From contig JBAMJV010001391.1 in NCBI GenBank assembly GCA_037951105.1, forward strand, positions 124,001 to 188,000: a stretch of DNA of 64,000 nucleotides, read 5' to 3'. Shown piece by piece: positions 5,701 to 63,740 of this stretch (within the stretch, counting starts at the first letter, position 1; each line of letters begins with the position of its first letter). Position numbers and translations under genes: made by a program. Below the pieces are notes generated by a model. That model had not been told where the DNA came from. It saw only the letters and a program-made list of their open reading frames with translations, and did no database searches. The DNA is from Echinarachnius parma (Eukaryota > Echinodermata > Echinoidea > Clypeasteroida > Echinarachniidae).

Positions 5701-8700
5701 ATTAAAGGGATAGTTGAGTTCTGGTAAGGAGAGTACAGTTTTAGTGAAACTGAATTTTAGTAACCAAAACCTGCATCATTACATTACAAACTAATAGTTA
5801 TAACTAGAAAGGAACACAAAATTACAAATGACGTAGTAAAGATCATGTTATCATTCAAAAAGAGCCGTTAAAACGTAAGAGGGCGCTCTCTAAACACTCA
5901 TCGGTTTTAACCATTTGGAATAAAATATTGTGCATGTGATGCTTTGTTGAAATAGTGATTAGATAGAGAAATAACCAACAACTATTTAAATACCTATTTT
6001 GTAACCTTTTGAAAAGAGGAAGCATTTTTTTGAATTTTTAACGGCTGGTTCAAAATTCTCTAATAAACCCGGGGCCCCAGGTTTATTACAAATTGTTATA
6101 TTTATGGATATTTCAGCCGTTTCTGAACCGATTTTGATCAAACAAAGATGATTTTATTGTTTAAATATTATGCTCTTTCAAATTTTACACTCAATTTTTC
6201 ATTACCTCACAAACCAATTAAGTAGTCTAACGCCCTCTCTACCAAAACTCAACTTTCCCTTTAACCGTCTGGGCCTATCTCTAATTTGGCATTCTCTATG
6301 ACTCGATCTATACCAAGATGTGTCTGTGACATTTACCTGGTGATGTGCATCACAGCATGACAGAAAGAACGTTTGTTTGTTTTGTCATCGTGCTCTGGCC
6401 TGGGCATATCTCGGTATAGAGAATGCCCTCTGTGTAAATGATGGAAAACCTGATTGAACAATATAATCTATGATCGAGACATCTCTGCAATAAACAATAT
6501 CATATGATTGAAATGAATCTCTTACTCATGCATATATTATAAACTATGATGGGACATCTTGACTGCAATAAACTATATCTGATTGATATGAAACTCTTAC
6601 TCATGCATATTAATATGGTTTGAAATTAAACTAAGTTGAGTTGATGTACTAATCTTGCCCCCCACATCCAAATTTATTATAGTCATGCATTTATCAAATA
6701 TTAACTCAAGACCCTCTGTTTTTCCCCCTCCAGACTATGGGTGCAGCGGAGAGCTCGATCTTACCAGGAATGGCCGCGGTACCATCTCAATCGGTGACCT
6801 ACCGGCAAACCTCACCAGTGCCTACTGCCGGTGGCTCATCAAGACGCCGCTACAGACCAACGTCAACTTCCGAGTCGACTCTTTGCAGTCTGGTTAGTAA
6901 CTGTACATTGTCGGGATGGAAATGCATGCATGCAAGTCCCTATAATGTTGGGTTATAATAGCATTTTGATGGTTCGGGTCAGCTTGCATCATCCGTCATC
7001 TACTCAGCCAATGATCTCATCATGTTTAAATCATTTTTAAGTTCAAAACTTCAAAATAATACTAAATCTGGGCAAACAACCATATACGCATGATCAGGCA
7101 GTAAGCCCTTTGACTTGCAGCCCTGCATGAACCTGGAAAATTAAAGAGACAATCCCTGGGGAAGTAAAAACTGGGATGAAAAATGATGCCCTTTCATTTC
7201 TCTGGCAGCATTTGGTTCCCTTTAAGTTAATAAATTCAATTTAGGGCAAACCATCATATATTCATGATCTTGCAGTCACTTGTAAGCCTATGATTTGCAG
7301 GGATGATAGTAGACCGAAAAAATTGGTCTCATTTCCGCAACGGTTGATTTTACCGCTCCATTTAGAACAAAGTCTGATATAAAAAAAAAAACCCATGTAG
7401 AGTCTGTTATTTCTGATTTGGATGTTAATACCATTTTCTATCTCCCTTGTGTGTGCACAGAGGATTATTATGACATCATGGAGGTTGGTATGGGGTCCAA
7501 CCCCTCCGATGTGGCCTCCAGACAGAAGCTCCTCGTCGGCAATGTCATGGACCAGACCTTCTCGACCTACTCCGGAGACATGTGGCTCGTCTTCTCTGCT
7601 GAAGACCTTGCTGCTGAGGACGATGTCATGATATCACTCTCTTTAGATGACAGTAAGTCAGATAATATTCCTACTAATGATTAATAATAGATAGAACTCG
7701 AGCGCGATTGCAAAAGAGCTTCTAACCGTAACAGATCCAAACATAACTAGAAGTTTATTGAATAAGTAAAATAGTAAATCTCAATAGACACTTGCAGAGC
7801 ATATGGTTGACCAAACCTTTTCCACCTACTCTGGAGACATGTATAGCTCGTCTTTACTCTCTTTAGGTAGCATTAAGTCAGATAACAAACTCAAAGATTT
7901 AGAGATGTCAAAGACATGTAGCTCGTCTTTTCTGCCGAAGAGCTTGCTGCTGAGGACGATGTCACGATATCACTCTCTTTAGATGACAGTAAGTCAGATA
8001 ACATATTCATATGTCTAGAGACCTACAAGTTTATTTTGAGAAAGTTAATCACAAAAGACACTTGCATGGCATGTTTTTGTCAAGACCTTCTCGATCTACT
8101 CCAGAGACATGTGGCTTGTCTTTTCTGCGGAAGACATTGCTGCTGAGGACGATGTCAAGATATCACTCTCTTTAGATGACAGTACGTGAGAAAAAATATT
8201 CACATGTCTAGAGATGTACAAGTTTATTTTGAGACATGTGGCTTGTCTTTTCTGCGGAAGACATTGCTGCTGAGGACGATGTCAAGATATCACTCTCTTT
8301 AGATGACAGTACGTGAGATAACATATTCACATGTCTTGAGATGTACAAGTTTATTTTGAGAATGTGAACAGGAAATAATTAACTTGAATAATTTTGAGCA
8401 AATGAAGAAATTCCTCTATGTTATTTGATCCTCAACATCCTCTACCTTTAATAAAAGAGGAAGAGGATGAAGATGCCTGCCTTCATGATATTGATTCTAA
8501 GAATTTCTAACATGTCTCTACACCTTCCAGTTCCTAGATGCTTGTCGAATCAAGGCAGTCCTCGAGCTGTCAGGAGAAATTTATTCACCCTAGCTCTCAA
8601 GTAGACTTTACCCTTATATACCATCATTAGCAAAAGTTTAAGACCACCTGGGAATTTGTGGGTATTACAATAATTTGGACTGCATTCTTAATGATTACAT

Positions 8701-11700
8701 AACATGTTTACTACAGTGGTCAGTAGCAAAAGAGTAATGGTCAGCGATAAAATTAATATTTTTATTTCAGGGGCTCTATTTTCGGGGGCTCCATTTTCGG
8801 GGGCTACTTTTCCGATTTTCGGGGGCTACAAATTTCCAGGCTCTTTTTCGAATTTCAGGGGCTAATAATAAGCTATAATGCTGTAAGTGATCATTTATAA
8901 ACATTTGATAACAATCCAAACAGAAAAATCCCACAAAAAAATCTCGAAAATCCCCAAAAATAAAAAATAAAATTCGGGGGCGAATTTTTTGTTCCGGGGG
9001 CGAATTTGGGAATTTCGGGGGCGAATTCGACCCGCCGCCCCCATGTATTTTTTTGCTGGTAATGGTATTAGCCCAGCAGTTCAAGTGTGATACAAAGGTT
9101 ATGCGTTAAAAATAAAAGTATGTTTGAAAAATAAATGTTTAACTTTGTTGTGTTTTTTATTTATTGCATTTTGGAAGGGTGGTCTTAAACTTTTGATAAT
9201 GATGGTATATGCTTGTTGAATCTAGACTGTCCTCAAGCCTTTGGGAGAAATTGATTCCCCTCTGGGTCCAAGTGGACAATGACCTTGATGATGCTGATTG
9301 CAAATGGATAATTTCATGTGTGATTAATTTGAATAGTTTTGAGCAAACGAATGTGCAGATATCTTTCTATAATTTGTATTTTTATTTCATTTTAATCATC
9401 CTCCTCTAAACCTTCCTAGATGCTTGTAGAATCAAGACAGTCCTCGAGCTGTCGGGAGAAATCGACTCCCCCCAGCTCTCAAGTGGACTTTACCCTGATG
9501 ATTCCGACTGTCAGTGGATCATCCAAGTCAGGGGAGGGTTCCAGCTCCGTCTCCGCTTCCTCGAATTCGACCTCGAGTACGGCCACGATCAGCTCATCAT
9601 TGGAGGGACACAGCCAGACGAAGAGGATGTTGACTCGGCATATCTGGTAGGTTCACTTTTATTATTTTTTTTATAGATAGACAAGGTTGACTGGAACTTA
9701 ATTTGATCGCTTGATTGATTTTATTCTATCGTCCAAATTAATGGAAATTCTTTTTCCACATGGTAATACAGAGTTAATATATGCAACAAACATTTTATTC
9801 TTACTTTGAGACATTATTGTGTTGTGAATAATAATACTATTTTGATGGTGCCTGTCCTTTAATGTTAATACATATTACTACAGTCAAACCTGTTCTAATA
9901 CATGATCAGGTCTCTTGACTGTCTCTGTGATTCCTGCTGACGTGGTACGTGAGTTGCTACAATGGTCTCAACCTCTGATTCAAGACAGAGGAACAATTAA
10001 GGATCTGCACTATACTATATGCTGTACATACGCATACATGTCTAAATTCAGATACACACTTGTTCATCCGATCAGATTGGATTGTGTAGTGTGTGGTCCG
10101 CTTTATAAGGTCCGGTCAGCGCAAACGGATAGCATAAACGGATGCACAACGAATAGAAAATTTGCAATATCAAATTATCCGGTAGTGAAAGTTGTCTCCA
10201 TTGCTCCATGCACAAAACATTCCGCAGGATAGAGCAACGTACATCTCCTGACAAGGAACCGACAAGAAACGGATACGAACAGAGACAAACTGATATAAAA
10301 CTTTTCTCTCCGCCGGGCATCGGTTTACGCTATCCCTGCAGTGATATGTGACCAGGCCTTTAGGCACACTCAGGGTATACAGTATACTAGATCGACAAAT
10401 CTAGCATTTTCATGGCCTCTTTACATTTAATTGCGATATTTGTCAATCTAACAGGATATGCATGTTTCACTCCTCTATAATAAACATTTTGTTTGAATAC
10501 ATCACCAGGTATTGACTGGCTCTGAGATTCCTGATGATGTGGTGAGCCGCTACAACGGTCTCAACCTCCGCTTCAAGACGGACAGCTCAGTCGCAAGATC
10601 CGGATTCAAGATGGTCTTTGAAGAATTCTGTGAGTATCATAAACATGCTTTTTGTTTTTCATGCCTCCCTTCCTATATTTCTCTCCCTCTTATAAGTTCA
10701 TAAAATCAAATATGTGACAATTAAAACAAGGTCTAATCAAGACATGTTGGCTTTCCATAATCGAGAGGGTGAGGTAATCAATATTAGAAACACAAATCTT
10801 GTGATCCTCATTTTGATTATTAAACTCATCCTCTCAACACCAATATTGGATAGTGTGTTTGAAGAAAACTTAATTTAACTTCCCCAGTTAGAGCCACCAG
10901 GAAAAAAGAAGAAGGATATTTGCTTAGGATGTTTATATGCAGAGAGATCTGTCCATTAATTTGTTTTGTTCCAATATGTACAGTTATTTTGCCCAGATGG
11001 GTATGGGTACAACCCAACAAAAGACACATGTTACAAGTTTGTCACAATGGAGACAGTCGTGGAGAAGTGCAAGTATGCTTTTATTTCAGTATTTTGGCCA
11101 GGAAAATTGATTACTGATTTCTTATATTAAGGATTTTGGAAAATTTCTCTTTATCATCACAGTTGATTGCCCGGATGGGTATGAATACAACCCAACCAAC
11201 GACACTTGCTACAAGTTTGTCACAGAAAAGACGTCGTGGTGGGAAGCTCGTCAGGACTGCGACAACGTCCCCGACGGCGATCTCGTGGTGGTCAACGATG
11301 AGGAAGAAAACGAGTACGTTTGGAACAAGATGCTGTCTTTGCAGGAGGGCAACGAGACTGAGCAGTGGTGGATAGGTGAGGGGAGAGATTGTAACAAAAT
11401 ATGCTAATTATGTAACATAACATTCTAATATTAAATGTAAGTTCTTTAAAGATAATGTCAGGCCATTTGAAAGTCAAATTTAAAAAAGTTGCGAGATCAT
11501 TTCTTATATGATAGAAATATGATGTAAGATCTACTTTTAAGAAGATTAGAACTGGAAAAATACATTTTTAATGGAATTGTATTGATTTGTAGAGCTCAAA
11601 ATAATGAAGGTCGTTACAATCGTTTATATAGTCTAGCAACTGCAGCTGTATTGTATTTCATGTTTTAACTGAACTAGAAGATAAAGTTAAAGAAGGACAC

Positions 11701-14700
11701 CATCTTAATTAAAAGATACTTTCCTCTTTTTGCAAGACAAAATTCAAAAGTTGCGTGACACTTTCCTAAATTTCTCAATTTTCTTGTATGTTTCTACGAT
11801 GCTGCCGTCTATGGTCAGTGGTCAGAAGACGAAGGACACCATTTTTCATTTCTTAATTTTCTTGCGCGAGGATGTCACATTGAAACGGGCATGACTGCTC
11901 TCTTTAAATCGCAATTATTATTATTAATATTATTATCATTAGGTTTCTACGATGCCGCCATCAACGGTCAGTGGTCCTGGGTGGACTGCGAGGAAACGGG
12001 ACTGTTTGGTCAACGGGCATGACTGCTCTCTTTAAGTCGCAATTATTATTATTAATATTATTATCATTAGGTTTCTACGATGCCGCCATCAACGGTCAGT
12101 GGTCCTGGGTGGACTGCGAGGAAACGGGACTGTTTGGTCAAACCAACTGGCAGATAGGTGCCCCAAATGACAACGATGATGACCACTGCGCTTACATCAA
12201 CGGCGTTAACGGGCTTTACAATGACGACCAGTGCAACAACAACAGGAGCTACGTCTGCGAGATCACAAGAAAGAGTAAGGAAACCATCAATTTTATTTGG
12301 ATATGCGGAGAAAAAAAATTGAGATATTTAGACCGTTAAAAAAAGAGACCTTTGTCATGTGATCTTTCAAGAAAGTTTACCTTTGGATACAGTTTAAAAA
12401 CATTGCCTATTGTATTTGGGAACCCTGTTAATCCTGTTATTTTATTTATATGGGAATTTCAGGATCTAGTAGGAAACGAGTTAATGTGTTCTACACATTC
12501 ATACAGTAGGAGGAATTAGAAGGTTTGCACTGTATCCTATGGCCGGGGGTAATAATATCATTGTAAAGCGCTTAGAGATGATTATCAATCATATTAGGCG
12601 CTATATAAATGGAGTATATTATTATATTATTATTATTTTATTTCCTTCCCTCACTAGACTACGTTGATTCTGACTGCTACCCATCCAACTTCCGCGTCGT
12701 TGACACGACCTTCACCCAGGTCAGCTTGACCTTCATCGTCTCGGACTTCGCCTGTGACGTGTCGGGATACTACGTAAGTTCTTAAAGGGGACCACCAGGC
12801 AAAGAACAACATATAATTATATATGCTTTGGTACCATTTTGTGATATCAAATAGATACCCAACATTTTGCAAAAGGTAATTCATAAACAATGGAATTAAC
12901 TACCACCACTTACGGAACCAGTATTATTTCATGGTTCCGTATGCGCCAAACATTTGCGAGTGCGCCACGCATACGTTAGGAGACAATAGAATCCTGGTCG
13001 ATTCATTCGCTCTGGACAAAGGTAGTCTTCATACACGCAGACCCATGAACGCATGCTTTAGAATGGTGATGCGTTTTCCAATTTTATATTTTTTTCTGGA
13101 AACATATTTTTCTGAACTTGTTGATGGAATGGACTACTAAAGTTGATATCTTTCATTTAAAAGTATATTATTTTTGTGTGGTGGTACCCTTTAATTTTGA
13201 TTTGATTTTGATTTGGTTTGGTTTGGTATGGTTTGGTTTGGTTTGGTTTGGTTTGGTTTGGTTTGATTTGATTTGATTTGATTTGATTTGATTTGATTTG
13301 ATTTGATTTGATTTGATTTGATTACCTTGCCATTTACGTGTGCATACATGTGTATACTGTATGATCTAGCAGACTAGCAACTTGGACGATCGTGTTATAA
13401 TACGCCACTACTGATCACATCTCACACTCACAAATACGAGATATGGCTAAAAGTAGAAAGACAGCAACTGCCAAACTGAGAGAGATTCTAGAGAGCCCCG
13501 AATTCCTACTGGCCATATCTGACGCGGTTGAAAAGAAACTTGATGATATTATGAAAAAGCTACGTAAACAAGAAAAACGCATCTCACACCTTGAAATATC
13601 ACAACAGCAGACAGACAAACTATGTCACGACATCCAGTCCCAAGTCAATGACCTTGGCAACAACATGTCATCAAGATGTGAACAACTAGAGTCCTCATCG
13701 ATGGATCTGAAAGTCGACAACGATGCCAAGACGCACAAGATCCAGTCTCTGGAGAAGGAAGTCAACGCCCAGAGTAACATCATCTCCAGGCTGCAGACTT
13801 CACTAGAGTTTCAAGACCAGAACTCCAGGAGGAACTGCCTCCGCATCTTCGGGGTGCCTGCCGCTCCAGACGAAGTCACCACTGAGGCAGTATGCAACGT
13901 TGCCAAGAGAATCGGAGTCGACCTGAGCTCGGCAGAAATCGACCGTTGTCATCGTGCAGGGAAGCAGACGGCAGATGGCAGCAAACCTCGGGGCATCATT
14001 GTCAAGCTGTGCTCATACCGCGTTCGACAGCATCTTCTTCAAAACCGGCGTCGACTGAAAGGAACAGGAATCACCATACATGAGGACCTCACAGCAAAGA
14101 ACTTCAAGCTACTACGGGACGCTCAGGCACATGAAAAGGTCAACTCGGCTTGGACATCTGACGGGAAAGTCATCATTCTGGTGCCTACAACAAATGGGAA
14201 CACGACCAAGCGGGTGGTAACGTGCCAAGCAGATCTTGCCCGCCTTTAAAGACTTTGACCACTCAGAGACAATAGACCATATGTCATAGGTAATATTTGA
14301 ATTTCATATGCTCAAATCTTTTGCTTCCCGATAATGGTAATTATAAATTTTAAACTGCTCCTTGAAACTAATTATAACCTTGTAGATTTATCTATTTATT
14401 CACTATACGTTTTTAATATATTCATACTCCTGATAGGCACTTTTTAAGAAGCTTTTAATTGCAACTGTACTTTTACTGTTTTAGTTAATTTTTCCTGTGA
14501 TTTTGAATTTTAGATATTGTGGTGTGTGACTGTGTGTGTATGTGATTACAATGCCTAATGTAAGTAGCTATGTAGAATCTTTACGATATATTGATAGACA
14601 AGCTTTACACAATCACTTGTCTCCTCCAGATGATGAAGAATACTCATATGAACCAAAACAAGCTTTTTATACTCCTTTAGAATTTAATAAAGTTGTAAAA

Positions 14701-17566
14701 GACACAAATATTTGTTCAGAACCTCTAGATTCATACAATAAGTTTTCTGTTATTCATGTTAATTCTAGAAGTATGAATACAAATTTTGATAATATGCTTT
14801 CACTCTTTGGTTTGTTAGATGTGCAATTTTCAGTAATGGGTATTACAGAAACATGGTTAAAAAATAATGACTCATTTTATAACATTGATAATTATTATTT
14901 TCTTGCTAATGGAAGAGAGGCAAAACGAGGAGGTGGTGTTGGTCTGTATGTGAGACATGATTTTAATTTTATTCATAGGTCTGATATTGATATAAGTACA
15001 AATTTTATTGAATCTATTTTTATAGAAATTCTAAATTGTAGAAAAAATATTATTGTTGGTGTGATTTACCGTCCACCTAATCAATCTGTGCAATTATTTT
15101 TAGAAGCATTTGAAAATATATTGAAAGTTGTTAATAGTCAAAATAAGTTATTGTTTTTAATGGGAGATTTTAATCTTAATTTATTGGAATATACATCTTG
15201 CCATAGTGTGAATGAATTCTTAGACATTTGCATGACCAATTATATGTATCCTATGATTCACAGTCCAACACGTGTTGCTGAAAACTCACTCTCATTATTA
15301 GACAATATACTTACTAACAGTCCTGATGATATTTTCTCAGGGGTCCTTTTGTATGATATTAGTGACCATTTACCAGTATTTAGTATTTCTAGTACCCAGG
15401 TTAAAGTTTCTACTCAACCCAAAATTATAATACGACGTATAATTAATAATGAGAATATTGCACACTTTATGACTGAAATTAATAACACAAATTGGACTGT
15501 GAATGTTAATAATGCAAATGTTGCTTATACTATATTCATTAATAAATTTATGCAAGTCTACAATGAATGTTTTCCTTTACAGACATGTGTCTCAAGCAAA
15601 CTTAAGAATAAACCTTGGTTCACAAGTGCTTTGCATAAACTATGTTCTAAAAAAAGTCAACTTTATAAAAAATATTTGAAGAATAAGTCTGATTATAGAA
15701 AAAAGGTTTATAATAAATTTAGAAATAAAGTGACAGAAGAAATTAAAGAGGCGAAACATAAGTTTGTTAAAAATAAATTTACTCAAGCAGCAGGAAACAT
15801 GAAAAAAGTTTGGACTGTTATAAATGATTTACTGGGTTCCAAAACAAATATAAATGTATTACCTCACACTATGAAGTGCAATAATCAAACTTTTAATGGG
15901 GAAAATGCAATTAGTAATGTTTTTAATAATTATTTTATTGATATTGGACCAACACTTGCATCTACTTGTGAACCGAATGGTAATTATATGTCACATGTTG
16001 AAAATAATGATTCAAGTGCCTTTTTTAAACCATGCACACCGAAGGAGATTATTGATATTGTATGTAAACTCAAGTCTGGAAAAAGTCCTGGTCATGATGG
16101 AATAGATGGTACAATTGTAAAGAAGGTTATTCATGTTTTATGCTTTCCTTTAAGTGCAATATTCAATTTATCTCTTTTAACTGGTATATTTCCTGATGAA
16201 ATGAAAATTTCTAAAGTTATTCCAATTTTTAAGAACGGTTTGAAAGAAGATATTGCAAACTATAGGCCAATTTCGATACTCCCCTTCTTTTCAAAAATAC
16301 TAGAAAGATGTGTATATAATCGCTTATATAATTTCTTGGAAAAGTGCAATATTATTACTAATAATCAATTTGGATTTAGGCCTGGGCACTCCACGTCATC
16401 TGCATTGACAGAATTTTTATATAAAGTTTTAAAAGCCATGGAAAATAAGGAAATAACGGTAGGCTTGTTTTTAGACTTAAGTAAGGCATTTGATTCTTTG
16501 GACCATACCATACTGCTAGATAAACTTCAACATTATGGAATTAGAGGAGTTCTTTTACACTGGTTTCAAAGTTATTTATTTGATCGTAAGCAGTATGTGA
16601 AAATTAGTGATACAGAATCTCAGTTATTAACCGTAAAATATGGAGTGCCACAAGGCTCAATCCTTGGCCCGTTATTGTTTATATTATACATTAATGATAT
16701 TGTCAATGTTTACGATAAATTACACTTGATTTTGTTTGCGGATGACACCAGCGTGTTCATGTCCCATAGCAGTATTGATATCCTCCTACAGACTTTTAAT
16801 TTGGAAATTGTAAAAATAGTAGATTGGTTGAATAATAATAAACTTGTGCTTAATCTTAATAAAACTAATTTTATGTTATTCTCAAATAAAAATATTCTAC
16901 ATGAAAATGTTGTGATTAAAGTTAAAGATATTGTAATAAAAAGAACCTCTCAGGTTAAATTTTTAGGGGTTACACTGGATGATAAGCTTACTTGGAATGA
17001 ACACACTGGTGCCATATGCAATAAACTTTCTAAAACTATTGGTATTTTTTATAAGTTAAAATCATGTTCGAAAGAGATACTAATGATGTTATATTATGCA
17101 TTCTTCTTGCCACACTTAATTTATTGTATACAAATATGGGGCAATTCCAGCAATAAAAATAGTCTAAGGTTATTAAAATTGCAAAAGAAAGCAGTCAGAA
17201 TTATTTCTCATAGTACTTATCTTGCCCATTCAGAACCAATTTTGAAGAGTCTTAACGTTTTAAATGTAAATGACACATATACTTTTCACGTTGCAATATT
17301 CATGTATCTTTGTTTTAGACAAATATTGCCCAAATCCTTAAGCAATCATTTTAAATTTAATAATAATGTGCATACATATTCTACAAGAAGTATGAATGAT
17401 TTTAATATACCCAAAATACGATTATCAGTCTTTCATAGATCTATATTTTTTCAGGGTCCAAAATTGTGGAATAATATACCCCCTGAAATAAAAGTATGTC
17501 AGACTTTGAATTTATTTAAGAGGAGATTCAAACAATATTTGCTCTCTAAGTACACCTAGCCAGGCA

Positions 17567-17614
<48 letters not shown>

Positions 17615-19134
17615 TGTGCAATGTAGGGTAGTTTTGTAATTATGATGTATCTGTATCTGTGTATTTTTTATTTGTTTGTATACTTTGGAATCGCTTTCAT
17701 AAGGCCTTGCCTTTCTTTTGATTCCAAACACTTTACTTTGTAAATTATATTTTCATTGTATGTTTGCTTTTTAAAGTGTTAAATAAAATTTGAATTGAAT
17801 TGAATAATACACTTTAATACAAATGATATAGAAATGCATTCATTGACCATTAATAACTATTCAATTAGAAACAAAATCGTAGAGCTTGCAATATTAATGG
17901 AAACAAATATGCAGACATCTTTTAAAATATAGTGAATATAATAAGGTCATAAATTCCATTATTTAAACATCGTAAAAGACATTTATATATGGGACTATCA
18001 TGTAGGTAATGCATGAGATAATGATGGTCCAGTAAATTGTTACGCCTTCACAACAAAGCCATGAAGTGATGGATATCTCCGATTTTCAGGTGTACAAAAT
18101 GTACATCATAACTGTAGAAATACTTTTGTTAAAACAAATTGTTAAAAAGCGATTGAGTAAGAAAATCAAATAAATCTTATCGGGGGACTTGCTTGTGTGA
18201 TATGTTTATATCTTGAGGAGACGATAAACTTATTAGAATTGAGTTTGATGAGGTCAAGGTCACGGGGCTCATTATAAAAATTGCGTAATGGCGGAGAGGC
18301 ATCCATTTCACCGTGTGCAGTCAGAGATCCATTAAAAAAAAAAAATGGTACGAAATATAAAACAAAGTCCATAATATTTGGACTGTTTGATTTGAGATGG
18401 CATGCATTGTCTGTTAGTAGACCCCAGCCCTTATTCTGATTTTTTCATATTTGTTGAAGCATCATCAATTAAAATTAATTTTTAAGCAATAATGCAGGTG
18501 TCATTTGTATGACGCACCTCTTGACCCCCAGGAAAGGTGCGTCATGGATGTATCCATGATGCACCCATGATGCAGGTATGACGCACCCATGATACCTTTC
18601 CCGGGGGTCAAGAGGTGCGTCATACAAATGACACCTGCATTATATCCCCAAACCTCATTGAAAGTACATGTATTCTCTCTCTCTTTCATTCAGGTCCGTC
18701 ACAACACAAGTGATCCTGAAGAATTTGTGGAGACCTACTTGGCAGGCGTCTTGAACAACTCTGTAATCATTGGAGGACTGGAGCACGGGAAGACCTACCT
18801 CTTTGAGATAACGACCTGCACACTGACCTATGGTTGCTATGGTTACAGCACTTCTCGCTCTGTGCTTGCCACAACTGAGGGTGAGTAGAAGTATGATGAT
18901 GATCGATAGTGATGAAGATGGTGATGGTGATATGGATCGTAGTAATCATGATGATTATGATGATTATTATTGATGGTGATGGCAGTGATGATGATGATGA
19001 TGACCATGCTTCTGCTGCTGCTTATGACAGTAATGATGATAATGATGATCATCATGTGAAGATGATGCCTGTGTGATAATAAGGTAGTAAAATGGTGATG
19101 GTGGTGATGATGATGATGATGATGTTGATAATGG

Positions 19135-19175
<41 letters not shown>

Positions 19176-22100
19176 TTGATTATGGTGATGGTGGTGATGA
19201 TGATGTTAATGATGATGAGAATGATAATGGTGGTTATAATAGTGAATGATGATGATGATAATAATGGTGATGGTGGTAATGATGATGATGATGATGTTGA
19301 TAATGGTGATGATGATGATGATGATGATGATAATGATGATGTTGATTATGGTGATGGTGGTGATGATGATGTTAATGATGATGAGAATGATAATGGTGGT
19401 TATAATAGTGACAATGATGATTATGATAATAATGATGATGAGGATGATGATGATGATGATGATGATGATGGTGATGATGCTGCTGCTGCCGCTTTTCGTC
19501 ATAATCATTTCTCCATGAGTCAAACATAATTATTATCATCGATCACTATTACTTTCTCACAGCTTGTGATGATGACTTCCCAATCGGTGTTGAGAATACC
19601 TGCTATCATGTTTCCAGCGCCTCTGAAACCTGGGTGAATGCGAGGAGGGCTTGCATTGATCTAGCTGAGGATGCCGAAATGGTGAACATTAAATCGGAGG
19701 GACAGAACGAGGGTCTGAGGCAGTATCTTGGCAGTGGATTCTACTGGATTGGTAAGTTTGCTTTAGTGCTCATCTCTAATTTTTAAATTCATAACTACAC
19801 AATCAGAGTAAAGATGTTTAATAGAAAATGACCTTCAGTAAGGTTTCAAATTGCTAGGTTTACCGATAACTGCCCATTTTTTGTTACCATACTATGGTAC
19901 TTTTTATGCCTCCGCAACGAAGTAGCCGGAGTCATTATGTTTTCGGGTTGTCCGTCCGTCCGTCCATACGTCCGTCCGTACGTCCCGTTCTCGTGATCGC
20001 GTTATCTCAAGAACTGATTGACGGTTTCTCACCAAACTTGTTTCATGTATGTATCATGGGGTGACAATGAACTGATTAGATTTTGGGGTCATGAGGTCAA
20101 AGGTCAAAGGTCAAAGGTCACAGGGCTCATTATATATGCAAAAATAGCTCGTGATCGCGTTATCTCAAGAACCGATTGACGGTTTCTCACCAAACTTGGT
20201 TCATGTATGTATCCTGGGGTGACAATGAACTGATTAGATTTTGGGGTCATGAGGTCAAAGGTCACAGGGCTCATTATATATGCAAAAATAGCTCGTGATC
20301 GCGTTATCTCAAGAACCGATTGACTGATTCTCACCAAACTTGGTTCATGTATGTATCCTGGGGTGCCAATGAACTGATTAGATTTTGGGGTCATGAGGTC
20401 AAAGGTCAAAGGTCACAGGGCTCATTATATATGCAAAAATAGCTATTCGCGTTAAATCTTAAGAAGTGATTAATGGATTTGCACCATACTTGGTACATGT
20501 ATGTATCTCGAGGTGACTAATAACTGGTTAGATTTTTGGGTCATGAGGTCAAAGGTCAAAGGTCGCAGGGCACAATATATGCTAAATTAGCTTGTAATTG
20601 CAAAATCTCATGAACTGAATGTCATATTTCAATCAAACTTGTTACCTGAATGTATCCCAGGAAGCCATTGTAGCCATCAGATTTTGGGGTCATGAGGTCA
20701 AAGGTCAAGGTCACATGACTCATTAAGCCATATTAGCTTATAATTACAATATCTTACAACTAGGAGCTCTTATGTATGATTTGAATGCAGGTTTGCTGCC
20801 AGTAGCCTTGGCCAGAATAAAAAATATTTGTACTGTATAATTTTGACCAAAATTTACCCCTGTGTTGATCATGCAGGTCTTTATGATGTTGTCGAGGAGG
20901 GTGAATTCTTTTGGACGGCCGAGTGTGAGCTACCAGATGACTACACCAACTGGAACGGTACAAACCACCCGAAGAACGATGACGAGGAATGCGTTTCTAT
21001 GGACGCCGAAGGCTTCTGGCATGACAATGATTGCGATAGCCTCTTGGCTGGCTACGTCTGCGAGCAAACAGACAGACGTAAGTTTACCGAGGATCTCTAA
21101 TACCCCATCAGCTTTCATTCTATAATGGAGTACCTGGGGGGGGGGGGGGGGGGGGGGGTTACATGAAGAGTCGCATTTAAACACAAGCAAAACAAAACAT
21201 CAGGGGCAATCAGCTTTCATTCTATAATTAAGTACTGGGGGGGGGGGGGTTGTTGCATGAAGCGTTGCATTTCAATGCAAATAAAAACAAAAAAATTCAG
21301 GGGCACTGCATGAAACCAGTTTACCTCCAACAAAAAGAACCTTATTGAAAATTAAGTTTGAAATATTATTTCTTTCCGCAAAGTTTTATTTCGACCCAGC
21401 TTATTCCTGTAACCAACTCTTTTCAGGGGGGGACTGTGTACAACAAGTTTATCATCAATGATTTCTTTCTTTTTTTGCTGGGTTTAATTTTGACCCAGTA
21501 GCCCTAGAACCCACACTTTTCAGGAGCACTGTGTACAACAATTTCACCATTAAACGTAAAAGATACTTATCAAAATTAAGTTTGAAATATGATTTTTTTT
21601 TTGAGCAGGGATTAATTTTGACCCAGTGGGCCTAGAACCCACACTTTTCAGGGGCACTGCATACAACGATTCTATTAACCATAACCAATATTAAATTTGA
21701 AATGCGATTTCTTTTGGCAGGGTTTAATTTCAACCCGGTGGCCATAGAGCCGACACTTTTCCGGGGCACTGCGTACAACGAGTCTACCGTCGACTTGACC
21801 TGGGTGCCCGCGGACAACACTTGCGACATCTTTGGATACACGGTGGAGGTCAACGGTTTTGACCTAGTAACAGAGGTTAGTTGTTGGTAACATCGCTAAT
21901 AAAAGACAAATTAATAAATGAACGTCTCACAAATTTCATTTAATTTCATTTCAATAATTTTATTTCCAAAACTTTAAATCATAAATTACAAAGTAACATA
22001 CAAGTTCATATACATAAAATGCTTCTGACTATAAAATGATACACATTCAGAGTAACAGAGTAGTGATGACACATTGTTTAGTTATCCCATAGTGATGGTT

Positions 22101-36697: not shown

Positions 36698-36729
<32 letters not shown>

Positions 36730-36736
36730 AATGGTA

Positions 36737-36777
<41 letters not shown>

Positions 36778-45700: not shown

Positions 45701-45819
45701 TATCTGGTAGAGCTAACTTTGGTACACTAAACTTCTACACAGAATTTTGAAATTTTTCTCCATTAATTAATTATGGTAATTTTGTATTTATTTATTTATT
45801 TATTTATTTATTTATTTGT

Positions 45820-45875
<56 letters not shown>

Positions 45876-48800: not shown

Positions 48801-51800
48801 TACATGCTGTTTGGAAAAATACTAAAAGGGAGAGGAACTCTAGCTATGTCAGCTTCAAGAGTCTTTAGACATGGCAATCACTATTCGTATGTAGTTCTGT
48901 TTCATACCATATGTTTTTGTACTACTTAAAAATAAACTTTCTTAAATAATAAGTAGTATTTCTATATCTCCCTTCCTACCCTAGGCATGAGTGATCTTTC
49001 TCAAGAGAGGAGCTTCAGCTGGGTGGACTGTCAGGCCCTGCAGACGTGGCAGTCGCTCAACTGGGCGCCCGGTCAACCGACCGATCCTGATGGGAGCCGC
49101 GACTGCGTCCAGATGACTCGATCGGGCCAGTGGGACGACACGCTGTGCGAGAACATAAGACCATACATTTGCAAAGTCCAGCCTAAAGGTTCGTTTTGAA
49201 CAACACGATTATGTAAAAATTATGTTTAGATGACATTTCCTCACTTTTAAGACAAATTTTGCTCAAATAGTTGCCCAGTAATTGGCCTATTATCCCAACG
49301 AAAGCTGTGTCTGAAGGGATGACACGAACAGGCCTGTGGGACGACTCGCTGTGTGAAAACACAAGGCTGTACATCTTTAAAGGTTAGTTTTGCACAACAC
49401 GATTTCTTAACAATTATTTGTTGCTGACATTTCTCCATTTTTGAGACAAATTTTGTTCGACCGTGAAGTGATAACGCGAGCAGGCCAGTACAGTGGAAAC
49501 TGTGCAAGAACACAAGGCCGTTCATCTGTCAAGTCCAGCCTAAAGGTAAGTATATATTGCATAATGACATCATATTTTCATTCATGAGATGAAAATTTCT
49601 CTGCATTTACGATAAGTTGTACTAAACATAATTGTCCAAGGAATTGAAAGATACCGACTAAGCTGCTACTGCACTGACGATGACTCAATTGCATCAGCTG
49701 GATGGCGCATTGCGTGCGAACATGACGCAATACAAATTAAATGCACGGCAAAAGTCGCCTATTACGATGGTAGGATTCAAACTATGTTCGGGAGGATTTC
49801 AGTTCGACGCGCTTATACCACTAAACTAATTTGCCAACCCAATTTCATAACATTTTATAAATTAAGATAAAAATTAATTCTCATCAATTTTTTTCAAATT
49901 CAGGCTTCACCGAAGAGGACCAATACCCCCTCACTTTCTCCGTCGAGGCAACGTCTGCCCTGACCGCCCGCGCCACCTGGGTTCCCGCCCCCAACCGATG
50001 CAACATCCTCGGCTACTACCTCATCGCCTCTGACGGCGGGATCAACGACGATGTCATCATCGATGTCGTTGGTGCTTCTTCGCTCCAGGGAGAGATCACG
50101 GGCCTCAGGCCGGACTTTTTCTACGTGGTGTCGATTGCGCCGTACACCGCACAGGGAGTGCTTGAGACCCGCTTCCACACGACCATCCAGACGTTCAACG
50201 AATCGAGTAAGGCGGATGATTTGTTATTGTATTTTATTAACCAGGAATTCCAGATTTTTTAACTGAGAAAGAATATTGCATTATCCAATTGTTTTATAAA
50301 GTTACCTTACCATACAAAATATATATTATTTAGAATCTAATATTCCTATTACCAATTGAATCATTGAACATGTTTTGGTTTTAAGAATTTCTCTTTGGTT
50401 AAAAAAGATGTTACTGATTGAATTGTTTGGACTTGACATTCTCTACTGGAGAATTTAAAATGTATATGTTTGAGGGACCTACACATCGTCACCCTAAAAT
50501 ATTTCTGACAGTTTTAGACTTAAAAATCGTACAAATTTCATAAAACTTTACTCACACATTGAGAAAATAGTGTAGATTCCGATGCGTCTTCGAACGCCCG
50601 CATTGTTTTTTGGCTCCACGAGTTCACAGTGTTTTTTTAAACCGGCACCCCTCAACTCTGCATTGACAAATGCACGCAACTCAAAATTTCTTGTGCAATG
50701 TTGGCATCATTTCACAAATTTCACAAAAATACACGTAGTGGACGATAAACGCATTATTTCTCCTTGAAGTTTCGACCAGTGCAGTTTCTAAGGGTAGCGC
50801 TCATTATCACATGCGATATTGTACAACACGCGCAAAAACAAATTTTACGCGGGGTGCCGATATTTAAAAAGTACCCCTACCATACAAAGTCAGTCCAATG
50901 AGTTTAATAGCAAACATCAGTTTGCATTTTCGCTCATTTCTCACTCATATGACATTAATTTATCATGGAATTTTTATACATATCACTCAGAAATTAATAT
51001 TTTATCAACCCTTCTTCAGCTTTTGCACATTTTAACAAAGTTACTTGATCCCTTTGATCATAGAACTCCATGGGTCCACCAGCATCACCAAAATGTTTCT
51101 CTCTGAATCTGTTCAAATCAATAAAATTACAACTTTCTCCATTTTGTACAGCTATTTGTCCACCTGGCTATGAGATTGGATACCAGTATGGCTGCTACAA
51201 ATTTGTTACGGATGCGAAGGATTGGGCCGACGCTCGCGCAGACTGTCTCGGAGCGCCAAACGGCGATCTGGCTATTGTCGACACTCAAGATGAGATGACC
51301 TTCATCGAGGACTACGGCTTTGGAGGGTTGGATTGGTGGATTGGTAAGGTTTCTTGTTTCTATTGTTTTGATTATTTTTAATGTATTTCTTTGTTTTTTT
51401 CTTATGTATTTCATTATTTTTTGCATTATTTTATTTTTACACAAATCACGAAAATTAGCGATTTTGGGGCTGACCTGCAAGGACAAAAGGTCACATGACT
51501 CCCATGACGTTTGGTCAGATTTTCGAAAATTTTAGTTTTACCATCATTTGCAAAAGTTTAAGACCACCCTTCCAAAATGCAATAACTCAAAGAAAAAACA
51601 AAGTTAAACATATTTATTTTTCAGACATACTTTTATTTTCAACGCATAACCTTTGTATGACACTTGAACTGCTCTTTGAATGACCACTGTAGTTAACATG
51701 TTATGTAATCATTCCATGAGACAAAAGAATGCATTCCAAATTATTGAAATACCCACAAATTCCAAGGTGGTTTTAAACTTTTGCAAATGATGGTAAAAGA

Positions 51801-54800
51801 TGCGCAAGACCCAAAAATGAAAAGTCACGTAGCTTCTGGGCGTCATCTTCATGCATTCCAGAGCAATCAGGAAAATTGTGGAGGGGGTAGGCATAATGGC
51901 ACCTTGACCTTTTTGGGGTCAGTTAAATTGGATTTCCACCTTGGATAGTACATAGTTGCAATAAAATCAGATGAATGATAGGAACATTAAGAGAAAATTT
52001 TAGCAAAATCAATCTATAAATAAAGAATTAAGTAAATAAAGAAATTATTCCCAATTGTGTCTGTAAATACTCAGTTTCATAATATTATATGAAAATAATG
52101 ACAGACCTGTCTGTCTTGGCCTAGATCCAGCACTCGGACGTACATGTGCATTACATAAAACCAAGCATTCAAGTTATTTCTTTTGTATGACCATGCAGGC
52201 CCAGGAAGGGACCTGGCGCTGGGTGGACTACACTTGGATCTATCTATCTGTGCCCAGGACCAGCCATCAGACATTGATGGAAGTACTAGCTAAATCAAAA
52301 AATTACTTTTTTAAAATGTAAATGCAGGTCTGTACGACCAAGCCCAGGAAGGGACCTGGCGCTGGGTGGACTGTTCAGATCTGTCTATCTGGGCCCAGGA
52401 CCAGTGGGACCTGGGCCAGCCCTCGGACGTGGATGGAAGCGAGAACTGCGGACAACTTCAGGACAACTCCAAGTTTAACGATCGATCTTGTGACAGGCTG
52501 CTTCCTTACGTTTGTGAGATCACAATAAAAGGTATGTTTCTTTTTAATAATAATAATAATACTTAATATTTATATTGTGCAATATCCACCTAATAAGGTG
52601 CTCAAAGCGCATAAGAAAGGAAAGTATATAGTATAGTGAAACAGACTAGAAGAAAGAAGGGGACAGTAGAAGGTCTACTTTAAATGCTGTTTGAAACAAA
52701 TGAGATTTCAATCTGTCTTTAAATGTGTCCACGTGGTGCCACTATCCCGAATATGTGAGGGTAACTGATTCTAAAGGAATGGTCCACCATGTGCAAAGGA
52801 CCTGTCCCCCCCAGATTTGTGCGCGATTTGGGGACAGTGCCAAGTAAGTCAGAATCCAAAGAGCAAAGACGCCAGGAAGGAACGTAATGTTTGATAAGAC
52901 TTATATTATATTCAGGGGTGGAACTATGGTCACAGTAAAGGTTAAACATACAGTCTAGTTAAGCCTTTACACCGTGTCCCTAAAAAAGGAAACCAGTGTT
53001 TGATGGTTATTTCTCAATGATTAAGATATCTTCTCATGTACATCACTGCAAAGCTCATATTCTTTGCTTTCATATGACACCATAGACATTAATAAATACA
53101 TCACACATGACTATTACAAACAATCTGTAGGGGGTACTGTGACTATACTGTCAGAAACCCAATTTTTCTACATTGCTACATTGGGTTCATTATGCTTTTG
53201 AAAAACATGAAACACTCCAATCTGTTGTTTATTGGATCGTCGGCCAAGATTCTATTTTCTTTTTGCAGGGAAAAAATAATAATAGTAGTAGGCTGTTGCT
53301 TATAAAATGTGCTTTTAAAATGTAATTTGTGAATGATCATGTCTAATATTTTGTTGTCCTTCTGAAATCAGAATTCACCCCAGAAGACGTCGACCCAACT
53401 CTGTTCATGGGTACCTCACCGTCCCCAACAACAGTCCTCCTCACTTGGCGTCCATCTGACTACAACTGTGACATCACTGGCTACACGTAAGATGGGAATG
53501 TAACCCTTTTACTAGTGTATATGTGACCTTACACCACAAAACAACCAATAAGTCGGGAAAACTGATTTTGCTGATTTTCATATAACATTTAAATAGAAGC
53601 CATTACTTTTAAAATGGTATATAATTTGTCATATTTGGACTAAGCAAACCCTTTCAAAATGAATGCCAAAGATATGGAATATGGCTGATGCATTTTTAAA
53701 ATAAGGGAGAAACGGGCCGCTTAAAAGATCTGTGTCCATTTATGGGCTGTAATAAGATCACATTTATTAAATAAAAAATTAATATTTAAACATGATTTCT
53801 GACGCTCAAAATTTCCCAGAAGGTAGATGAAGAAATGCTTATTTAGGAAATACCAAAATCCTAAATCTCATATTTTGAACAAAATTTGACTATTTCAGCT
53901 AATAAAAGAGAAACTACCACTGCGACATAATGGTCGTTTTGTGGTGTAAGGTCACATATTTTAAAAATTAATTCCATATTATTTCTGGACAGTTTGCTCT
54001 TTAATTGCTGTTTTATTTTACTTTGCATGATCTATCACACTTACCTATAAAGTGGATTTCATATCTTTTTGGGTTCGTGTCAGGTATATATTGCTTCTGA
54101 CCAGCAAGAGCATTGAAAAGGGTTCCTGGGAAGAACCACCGTCAGTAGGACCTGGTGGCTCAATGGTTAGAGCACAGGTCTAGCAGTTGAGAGGTATTAG
54201 GTTCTATTTTGGGTAAAGTCCAATTAGCGACTGAGATTGCATGGGACCGACTGAAACTTGTGCACTAATCCAAAATTTTGAGCATGTTCAGAAGTGGGAA
54301 ACTGCAGCCTCTGCCCTTGCAACAGTTATATTGCTTGGAACCAAGACCTTTCACAAGATTGATGCATCTTTTTTGTTGCAGTTAATGCTATTGATCTCAG
54401 AAGTTGCAGTATGTTTCATGTCGTACAAGTACAATATGGAGGTGTTGTGGCATGATCGGATAAGTGTTTGACTTCAAATCACAGGAGACGAGTTTGAACC
54501 CATTCGATGCCCCAGCATTTATGTCTCTCAGCAAGACATTTCATTCACATTGCTGCTCTCTACCCTGGAGCATAAATGGGTTCCTTGGTCGAGTGTAACT
54601 TAGCCTGATTTGCAGATAAAGTTGCTTACAATTTGTATTAGTTTGGAATTGTATTAATTCAAAACGCTAACATTTTGAATGACATGTACCTGAATGAATC
54701 ATGTTTTTTTCTTCTTCTTTTTCATCAGAATCTCCTACAACAACAACGGTGCGGTTATGGTCAATGTGCCCGGCGCCGACTCCATGAATCAGCTTATTAA

Positions 54801-57800: not shown

Positions 57801-60800
57801 TATTTTGAAGTTGTGCCATCTTAATGATAATTATTTTGTAAAATTGAATCAAAATATGAGTTCAGACAAAATTATAATGAAATAATATGTCACATGACAT
57901 ACTCTATGTATGATAAACTGATTTTATACTGACTGATATTGATACTTGATCATTCAAAATGATCCTTAATAAAGAGTGGGGTCACAACATTGTATTGTAA
58001 TCAAAAGTTTACAAATGTGTCTCCCTCTCTTGACAGATCTATGTGAGCCCGGCTGGGAGTCCGGCTATAACTACCAGTGCTACAAGTTCTCGAGGAGTCA
58101 GGTTTCGTGGGATGAAGCCCGCGCCGACTGCCAGTCAGTGGCAAACGGTGATCTGGTGATTATCGAAACCGAAGCAGAGTTCGACTTTGTGCGAAGCCAA
58201 GCCCCGGAAAATGATTGGTGGATAGGTAAACACACATTTTGTTAAAATATTGGATTAAAGATGATCCAATAAACATAACATTTTTGTTTGTAAAAAACAG
58301 ACTTGAATCATAATTATACCAATATTATTTAATTCCCATTATGTTCCTAGACAATAGATAATAAATAGTATTCTTCTCAGATTCATGATCTAGTACGATA
58401 TAAATGAGTTTTCAAATTATGACAACATTTTTCTAGAAATGTACCCATTTTTGCTGAACAGTTGGTGGAATGGACTACTATTACTACTTTATTTCAGATA
58501 CTAGCAAATTATTTGGGAATGCTGGTTGCATTTCAGCTAAATAAAGAAATATACAAGGCTGATTTTATTAATTTTCTGTTCATCTTGCCGCTTGATAGGA
58601 TTGTACGACAAGGGTATGGAGGGCAGCTTCGTCTGGGTTGACTGTCAGATTACAGCCCCATGGGTTAGGGTTTAATAGGGGTATGACAGTTTCGTCCAAT
58701 GCAGTATAGATACAGTATATACAATGCTGATTTTTATTAATTTTCTGTTAATCTCGTCGCTCGATAGGATTGTATGACAAGGGAACGGAGGGCAACTTCG
58801 TCTGGGTCGACTGTCAGATTTCAGCCACATGGGTCAGGGTTAGGGGTAAGACAGTTTCGTCCAATCCAGTAAAAAAATTCTGGTCACATCAATTTTCTGT
58901 TCTTTCTGCCGCTTGATAGGATTGTATTACTTGATTATATTAATTTTCTGTTCATCCATTGCTTGATAGGATTGTACGACAAGGGTACAGAGGGCAGCTT
59001 CGTCTGGGTTGACTGTCAGATTACAGCCCCGTGGGTCAGGGACAACTGGGCATCGGGACAACCCAATGATCTGTCGGGCAGCCAGGACTGCGTCCAGATG
59101 CTGAACGCTGGGACCTGGAACGACTGGGAGTGCTCCAACCCTGGACAGTACATCTGCGAGGTCAGCCCTAAAGGTAAGCAGGGAAATTAAAATTGAATCT
59201 ACTACTTTTCAAGCTGGTATGTATGAAAATATCACTCTAACATTTATTTTACATTAAAGTAAAATTACAGGGGTTCTATTATAGTTTGGGGGGCTCGTTA
59301 TTGGCTTTTGAGGGCTAAATCGCCCTGAGCCCCAGTGTATTTGTTATCATTGAAGGTTAGTCATATTACACATATGTGTGAATGACTTTAGCAGTTTATA
59401 TAAAATTGCATTGAATCAATTACATTGGAACCTTGTTATGATGACATAACAAAACCGTCTACAAAAAACACCCTTTGTAAAGATCTTAACTATTTATTCA
59501 TATTAACTTAACATTTTAAAGACTATGTAATACATGCTCCTGCTTGTATTGAGCACTATTTGATATTGTTTTAGTTTGTGAACAGCATTTTATTAATTGT
59601 GTTTTTGTGCTACGTACAATTACATGTACATACTTACATTTACCATAAGTTTTTAATACTATGAACTTGCAATCCCTTCATCCTCCTAGAATGGAGCTAC
59701 ATTGACCAGAACCCAACCCTACTCCGAGGCGAGGCCGTGGACCCCAACACCATCCAACTCAACTGGAGACCGTCTGCCTCCAACTGCGAGGTCGCTGGAT
59801 ACCGTGTCTACGTCATCGTTGAGCCCGACGGTGAAGCTTACAGCGTGGACATCGCCGATGGCGATACCAATATAGCACTCCTGAAGAACTTGGAGACAAA
59901 CACGGTCTACACCTTCGACATCGCCGCCATCCTTGCTTCATCGGAGATCCTACCCCCGGTGGGAACAGTGGTGCGCATCGACACACCAGCAAGTAAGTTT
60001 GTCCATTCGTTCGTGTCTCTAGATTTAAATAATGTCCCTTTATCGCTACATTGTTGTTTGTAAGTTGTTTTCATTTGTCTTTTTTTCTAAAGCGCTATGA
60101 AACATTTGTGTATTGACACAGTAGGTTTGCGGAATGCTTGTGTATTTTAATAGCGCTATATGAATAACTATATTGTATTGTATTGCATTATCAGGCGGTC
60201 AGTGCGGCAACACAGAATTCCTGCTCGAATCTGGCTTCATCCTCTCACCAAACTACCCCGAGCCATACCCAAACAGCCAGGACTGCCTCTACACCATCAC
60301 ACTCCCGAACTCCGCCCAGGTCATCCGTATCACCATGGAAACGCTGGACCTGGAACCAGGGTAAGGAATTGGGCCTAAACCCTATAGCACCCATTGTTTA
60401 CGGAGTACCAAATTACAAATACTCCTGTACTAATGTTAATATCTGGGCCCGGTATTCCATAAACACATTTCAGCAAGAAATTTAAGCCATTTTGATTGGA
60501 TTGAATAAGCAAAATTGCTTACAAGCTAAGAAAAAAACATCAAATATCTCGGTAAGCAAATTTGCTATTTTAAAGACAGTCTTCTTGCAGAAATTATGAT
60601 TGATCAAGCGTTTTGTATTTCATAAACAGTTTGGCATAAGCGTTTTTACGTACATTTAAGCTACCTCTTAGCTTGCTTATATCTCTTGGGACTTGAGAGC
60701 GTTGACGTTGTTCGCCTACATTTATGTGCAGTAAATGTATTGATGATGATGACCATTCTAGACATCAAGGTCAGAAGAAGAATTCTCGCAAACTACCTAG

Positions 60801-63455: not shown

Positions 63456-63740
63456 GTAAGTTTCTGCCTTATGACATACCCCAGCAATGGGCAGGAATTC
63501 TTGTAAGTTTCTCCCTTATGACAGACCCCAGCCATGGGCAGGAATTCTTGTAAGTTACTCCCTTATGACAGATCCCAGCAATGGGCAGGAATTCTTGTAA
63601 GTTGCTCCCTTATGACAGACCCCAGCAATGGGCAGGAATTCTTGTAAGTTGCTCCCTTATGACAGACCCCAGCAATGGGCAGGAATGCTTGTAAGTTGCT
63701 CCCTTAGTACATACCCCATCAATGGGCAGGAGTCTCCTTA
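63436..63740 (+). repeat. 47 bp minisatellite of exon ends and splice donors (about 6.5 units)
   Basis: The unit agcaatgggcaggaattctt then gtaagttnctcccttatgacagacccc repeats at 63436, 63483, 63530, 63577, 63624, 63671 and 63718, exactly 47 bp apart. Units 1-6 carry gtaagtt. The first unit is the end of the real exon (AGCAATGGACAGGAATTCAC). Confidence 0.95.

Follow-up and report, generated by a model that had tools for sequence, protein, structure and literature searches.

Decaying partial copies of exon edges in the introns of a CUB/C-type-lectin/FN3 gene and of other genes of Echinarachnius parma

The introns of a large gene of the echinoderm Echinarachnius parma carry fragments that repeat the edges of the neighbouring exons, which raises the question of how such fragments arise, what becomes of them and whether exon borders attract them. 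The gene consists of repeated CUB, C-type-lectin and FN3 domain units, runs on the + strand and, in a model built on splice sites and domain profiles, has 52 exons within a stretch of 64,000 nucleotides (assembly GCA_037951105.1, contig JBAMJV010001391.1, positions 124,001 to 188,000; hereafter the window, part of one contig in a 1.2-gigabase genome). The mitochondrial code and gene order agree with an echinoderm host: COX1 has TGA inside its frame, one AAA where Asn is conserved, 17 ATA at Ile positions and 3 AGA at Ser positions, and the order 16S-COX1-tRNA-Arg continues with reading frames that by eye resemble ND4L and COX2, which is the arrangement of echinoids and holothuroids. Profile matches and splice sites set 51 of these exons (five ends were corrected) and exon 63350–63455 was later added by eye. 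Splicing the 25 exons of 9420–35929 yields 1602 codons and splicing the 22 exons of 41402–63455 yields 1430 codons. Because both spliced stretches stay open, without a stop, the gene model is supported for 47 of the 52 exons, all but the CUB exons at 36469–40190 and exon 7461–7652.

Each exon with 150 base pairs (bp) on either side was compared with its own neighbourhood of 3 kilobases (kb) to each side, with exons and simple repeats masked and an expectation value (E-value) of at most 1e-3 required; the simple-repeat mask and the alignment length place units below about 40 bp outside the search range. The scan aligned 50 local copy stretches at 27 of 51 exons, which merge into 40 distinct copies. 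With exon 63350–63455 added the count rises to 54 stretches, at 28 of 52 exons; a neighbourhood of ±1.5 kb gives 53, again at 28/52. A shuffled control, with one order-1 Markov-resampled neighbourhood for each of the 51 exons, gave no stretch, and no reverse-strand copy was found for any of the 52 exons within ±3 kb; elsewhere in the window there are 19 inverted local pairs, none of which touches an exon. Identity to the exon ranges from 100% (11942–12013) to 67% (23034–23278). The initial annotation, made from the sequence alone, had described exon-edge copies at at least 28 loci, in the same orientation and from nearly identical to heavily decayed, and the census agrees on each point; the near-identical pair that it singled out is present in the assembly at 11884–12141, as a 128-bp unit with 99% matches. 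Two of its generalizations need correction. Rather than nearly all copies being centred on a splice junction, 26 of the 50 stretches reach across a splice site for over 5 bp and the remaining 24 abut the exon or lie within it. Damage to most copies holds as the barest majority, with a stop, an indel or a lost AG/GT in 27/50; a stop in the source frame is present in 15/50 and a stop or indel in 21/50.

The layout of the copies is directional. A splice site is spanned in 30 of the 54 stretches (17 acceptor, 13 donor), and the 17 acceptor copies all lie upstream of their exon and the 13 donor copies all downstream, a 30/30 count that is not fully independent, as four of the 13 donor stretches are one minisatellite. 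Head-to-tail duplication allows no other places: the broken copy must come to lie upstream when the duplicated unit covers an exon start and downstream when it covers an exon end. The 24 stretches that span no edge behave similarly: 22 derive from the exon half nearer the copy (12/12 upstream ones from the first half, 10/12 downstream ones from the second). At 23911–24225 and 24405–24702 an intron is doubled together with both adjoining exon edges, and the real exons are the outermost copies. The decayed state of these same-strand copies and their direction confirm tandem duplication as the process and sustain the earlier proposal that it was small and repeated, here over a long period.

The pattern extends to unrelated genes of this genome, where the initial annotation had proposed to look for it. 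Exons with a copy within 1.5 kb number 5/29 for cytochrome P450, 4/18 for ABC transporter and 17/29 for myosin head, counts that include near-identical loci; without these loci and at a stricter E-value the figures are 2/24, 4/14 and 15/26. Reverse-strand copies of these exons are absent within 1.5 kb, and 42 of 44 copies lie on the near-edge side. Duplication away from exons is common as well, non-exon local pairs in 64 other loci comprising 147 direct against 36 spaced inverted pairs. In the other loci the units of 41 head-to-tail pairs have a median length of 166 bp (quartiles 100–190, range 53–371), tandem units in the window measure 47, 127, 128 and 169 bp, and offsets between window exons and their copies are mostly 94–223 bp or larger, some of them near multiples. 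Any tie of this size to nucleosomes or Okazaki fragments is a guess. Related contigs (L035/L037 and L058/L073) differ by indels of 148, 156 and 432 bp that match their own flank (best 84–87%), which is suggestive of a changed copy number of tandem units; alleles and paralogues are not separated in these comparisons and many pairs align poorly, with partial overlap.

Several peculiarities of these other loci deserve mention in their own right. Four P450 matches with near-equal scores stand about 3.4 kb apart at G000:C9281, 357–10901, either a tandem gene array of very recent origin or a repeat in the assembly. Myosin exons recur on G000:C2768 (33946 and 123119) with an offset of 89173 bp, and loci L076 and L077 show no difference along 3162 bp; the cause is either a large duplication of recent date or a mistake in the assembly. 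The TCP1 chaperonin family has 63 matches in the genome.

Mismatches between exon and copy in the window amount to 165/1083, 145/1092 and 281/1084 at codon positions 1, 2 and 3 (0.152, 0.133 and 0.259). In the other genes, 49 uninterrupted exon matches give 84/733, 84/741 and 208/732 (0.115, 0.113 and 0.284), and the non-coding flanks diverge by 0.234 (278 bases), about twice the value at codon positions 1–2, which is to be expected if at positions 1–2 the copy alone changes and outside the exon both partners drift. By this codon-position profile the copies decay near-neutrally while the source exon stays constrained, in line with the decay that had been supposed from the letters. AG is retained in 14/20 copies and GT in 8/11, near the value of about 0.64 that we would expect at 80% identity, i.e. 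at about the neutral rate.

The copies are thus on the same strand, local, directional and near-neutrally decaying, and they are present in other genes as well as away from exons. We consider it probable that they are the decaying remains of frequent small head-to-tail duplication, without strong preference for exon borders. The genome would produce such duplications throughout, with a unit mostly of 100–215 bp, with slippage during replication, template switching or unequal exchange as the presumed molecular step. When a unit overlaps one exon edge, an intact outermost exon would still be spliced, with the splicing machinery presumably ignoring the copies, and selection would tolerate the change; judged from the sequence, the open frames through the outermost exons are compatible with undisturbed splicing. 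The inner partial copy, free of constraint, would decay. Units wholly inside an exon would be purged by selection, and in intron units both partners would decay at the neutral rate, so that exon-edge units, one partner of which is a conserved exon, would be recognizable for the longest time.

Five observations weigh against this account. Third positions in the other genes differ more than twice as much as positions 1–2. In the window, divergence in the non-coding part of the copies barely exceeds that in the coding part (0.208 against 0.193, from 17 copies with at least 20 non-coding bases); constraint on splice signals and the cut-off of local alignment may account for the low value, and the comparison is weaker support for decay than that of the flanks in other genes. 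The genes differ in rate, 15/26 myosin exons against 2/24 P450 exons (Fisher p 0.0003), which does not fit a simply uniform process, although long exons and young gene copies may be the source of this difference. At the older age limits the exon edges of the window show, under several settings, a rate two to three times that of the introns (p 0.001–0.1). Finally, the near-identical pairs could be assembly errors.

The fourth of these points is the core of the alternative that survives best: that exon borders are true duplication hotspots over a random background, for example through splice-linked R-loops, nucleosome phasing on exons or the polypyrimidine tract. The first count seemed to favour it, with copies at 27/51 exons against 34/150 intron pseudo-exons (21/125 without two satellite arrays), and so did an uncorrected density in the window of 4.07 against 1.00 pairs per kb. 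(Satellite-like arrays at 19990–20754 and 41738–43217 are related to each other, 69–89% alike, and the first has a unit length of about 144 bp.) Such counts need correction for age and for exon size, since exon pairs diverge more slowly than intron pairs and a unit of about 165 bp can touch a 190-bp exon from many start points. With age limits of 0.05, 0.075, 0.10 and 0.125, a 165-bp unit and a factor of 1.37 yield corrected exon/non-exon ratios of 1.48, 1.11, 2.43 and 1.78 for the window (p 0.65, 1.0, 0.04 and 0.10; pairs from one cluster are not independent). Six settings of unit length and factor over the four limits give 0.95–3.02 with p from 0.001 to 1.0. The excess is concentrated at the older limits, 2.07–3.02 at 0.10 (p 0.009–0.08) and 1.5–2.9 at 0.125, which are the most sensitive to how divergence is assumed to translate into age; for the two youngest limits the ratio is 0.95–1.85 with p of at least 0.53. 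The 64 other loci together give 0, 0.37, 0.56 and 0.88 with a factor of 1.31 and 0.36, 0.74, 0.78 and 1.04 with a factor of 1.49, none significant, and myosin alone gives 0–1.66 (lowest p 0.14).

The roughly threefold border enrichment of the first count is therefore gone, after correction, at young ages and in the other loci and persists at older ages in the window, and we have retained the hotspot as the main rival, if an unlikely one. A special preference for exon borders, which the initial annotation had assumed, is not established. Its contrast between junctions and random intron positions comes out divided: comparable duplication exists at intron positions, yet the older excess in the window persists under several settings, and a two- to threefold excess at older ages in this gene is possible. 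Geometry alone makes 95% of exon-touching units that are not wholly within the exon span exactly one edge (100–200 bp units, exons of about 190 bp), and most of the apparent focus on borders would come from geometry, selection and the slow decay of the exon partner.

Retention of the copies for a function, as decoy splice sites, poison exons or alternative tandem exons, appears improbable. It could draw on the AG or GT kept in about 70% of copies, on the array at 63435–63731 with all six of its GTAAGT and on the 29/50 stretches with neither stop nor indel. The codon-position profile, however, is that of an unconstrained copy in decay, from which functional decoys were judged unlikely, 21 of the 50 stretches are interrupted and none carries both splice sites. 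The last observation also leaves the supply of new exons or domain units, proposed in the initial annotation, without demonstration.

An assembly artefact from collapsed or stitched haplotypes is less credible still: the youngest pairs are 97–100% identical and near-identical stretches do exist on different contigs of the assembly, but most copies have identities of 67–90% and decay unequally at the three codon positions, the same pattern occurs on many other contigs, and a DNA search with 7856–8048, inside the first copy cluster, returned no second contig. Dispersed copying, by retrocopies or transposon capture of exon pieces, can be set aside almost entirely, for although three copies lie 1.2–1.8 kb off (offsets 1169, 1541 and 1793) and one of these matches the copy of a neighbouring exon (31696–31731, matched from exon 33196–33402, sits inside a copy of the paralogous exon 31046–31249), it would not produce the doubled intron or the bias to the nearer exon half, no copy is on the reverse strand and all 30 edge-spanning stretches keep to the direction rule, intron sequence travels along with the exon parts, and one genome search found copies within 1 kb only.

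The initial annotation knew of no standard name for small tandem duplication at exon edges, but in amphioxus the products are called mirages, a name that reportedly goes back to Canestro et al. 2002. In amphioxus, mirages occur in Adh3, the globins BflGb6 and BflGb9, troponin C and PGBD5; they are direct, minisatellite-like duplications across the 5' or 3' exon–intron boundary, with units of 10–72, 60, 108 and about 150–160 bp and with AG/GT retained in many but not all copies, and the globin and PGBD5 papers propose them as a source of introns (PMC3087553, PMC3902484). On that description the window has the same direct repeats containing a boundary, the same duplication of both boundary types, head-to-tail units of tens to about 160 bp (some longer here, to 371 bp in other loci) and the same incomplete retention of splice signals. 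It differs in the echinoderm host, in the share of exons affected (about half in some genes), in the prevalence of old decayed copies over fresh arrays and in the proposed explanation, for which a strong bias towards borders is not required. A potato gene is described as having gained an intron from a duplication crossing an intron–exon boundary, with inherited splice signals (PMC4974935); the boundary-crossing duplication is common to both, and no new intron is demonstrated here. Tandem exon duplication and mutually exclusive exons likewise involve local tandem duplication of exons (PMC9013439, PMC6071210), but the copies described here are partial, none of the 50 spanning both edges. Among the matches listed in Creative Commons-licensed PubMed Central papers there was no report of mirages outside amphioxus, echinoderms included.

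Mirages of the amphioxus type are thus now seen in an echinoderm and in several gene families, and the scale and the host look new. What were scattered amphioxus cases become a measurable process in another deuterostome phylum. Each such fossil dates itself because one partner is a conserved exon, positions 1–2 giving the age and non-coding positions about twice it. Since the same duplications are the proposed raw material of intron gain, the origin and growth of introns become countable. We suggest tentatively that in this echinoderm lineage small tandem duplication, with a preferred unit of about 120–215 bp (the size of nucleosomes or Okazaki fragments), is among the leading mutational processes across the genome, that conserved exons keep a fossil record from which its rate and size spectrum can be measured, and that introns grow by it and, in long exons such as FN3, are possibly gained by it again and again. 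The 11 FN3 domains of the window (12658–59992) comprise six in a single exon and five split by an intron at five different positions, as after repeated intron gain or sliding. In the five split-FN3 introns no copy of the FN3b start was detected, and a copy of FN3a sequence is present in two; for a model of intron gain by such duplication there are thus five introns at five positions on the one hand and no FN3b-start copy on the other. For annotation the copies call for caution, as protein-profile scans match the fragments as though they were domains.

Table 1. Host gene, copies of exon edges and associated features (window coordinates; percentages are identities).
Feature	Position	Strand	Details
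Host gene	9420–61197	+	50 modelled exons; CUB mostly 2 exons, C-type lectin CLA + CLB exons, FN3 1 or 2 exons
Exon, domain unnamed	7461–7652	+	source of donor-side cluster
Exon-end + donor copies of 7461–7652	7809–8324	+	7809–7854, 7856–7885, 7912–8004, 8071–8197, 8231–8324; 85–94%, all downstream
Acceptor + exon-start copy of CUB exon 9420–9646	8531–8617	+	88.5%; in-frame stop
Second, older start copy of CUB exon 9420–9646	9206–9312	+	75%; AG lost, stop, indel
Acceptor copy of CUB exon 10509–10629	9891–9989	+	79%
Start copy of lectin exon A 11163–11375	10989–11062	+	84%; protein profile match
Two start copies of lectin exon B 12071–12274	11790–12013	+	11790–11823; 11942–12013, 100% over 72 bp, 128-bp tandem unit
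Three acceptor-spanning stretches from FN3 exon 21721–21875	21338–21674	+	70–79%
Three stretches from end of FN3 exon 22850–22991	23034–23393	+	67–74%
Start copy of lectin exon B 24561–24743	24054–24225	+	with 24405–24501 one duplication, offset 494 bp, including intron + both exon edges
Copies from end of lectin exon A 23788–23970	24281–24501	+	24281–24332, 71%; 24405–24501, 86%
End copy of FN3 exon 25037–25185	25379–25461	+	80%
Two start copies of lectin exon A 27042–27227	26611–26979	+	79–81%
Acceptor copy of lectin exon B 28586–28789	28427–28512	+	72%
Mid-exon copy of lectin exon B 31046–31249	31691–31783	+	78%
Acceptor copy of FN3 exon 32017–32313	31799–31905	+	77%
Stretches from end (and donor) of lectin exon A 32648–32836	32929–33135	+	82–88%
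Four acceptor-side stretches from FN3 exon 34124–34423	33663–34042	+	73–82%
Two start copies of CUB exon 34966–35180	34608–34862	+	88%
Two acceptor copies of CUB exon 35803–35929	35388–35651	+	72–82%
Two stretches from end + donor of CUB exon 40038–40190	40273–40364	+	84–88%
Short copy from CUB exon 41402–41607	41709–41741	+	82%; second copy 43327–43391, 1.8 kb off, 75%
Distant copy from lectin exon B 46257–46466	45120–45181	+	offset 1169 bp; 76%
Acceptor copy of lectin exon B 46257–46466	46140–46195	+	82%
Part copy of FN3 exon 46970–47124	47219–47262	+	73%
Copy of lectin exon A 48184–48378	47851–47952	+	83%
Two end (+ donor) copies of lectin exon B 48985–49188	49318–49547	+	73–74%
Start copy of lectin exon B 52328–52531	52196–52263	+	87%
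Two acceptor copies of lectin exon B 58970–59173	58560–58839	+	87–91%; 169-bp tandem unit
Further exon without Pfam name	63350–63455	+	frame continuous with preceding CUB exon
47-bp minisatellite, 6.3 copies	63435–63731	+	repeats exon end + donor GTAAGT of 63350–63455; six GTAAGT 47 bp apart, the first the real donor

The window also holds mobile-element sequence. An element resembling a long interspersed nuclear element (LINE) lies inside an FN3 intron at 13401–17556, with an open reading frame of 1009 codons that contains endonuclease and reverse transcriptase domains; ahead of it comes a frame of 282 codons that has no match in Pfam. Open reading frames at 3740–4703 resemble, by eye, a reverse-transcriptase remnant (frame 3904–4428 has no Pfam match), and long imperfect palindromes, hairpin-type elements, are present at 18489–18643, 27279–27431 and 27646–27884.

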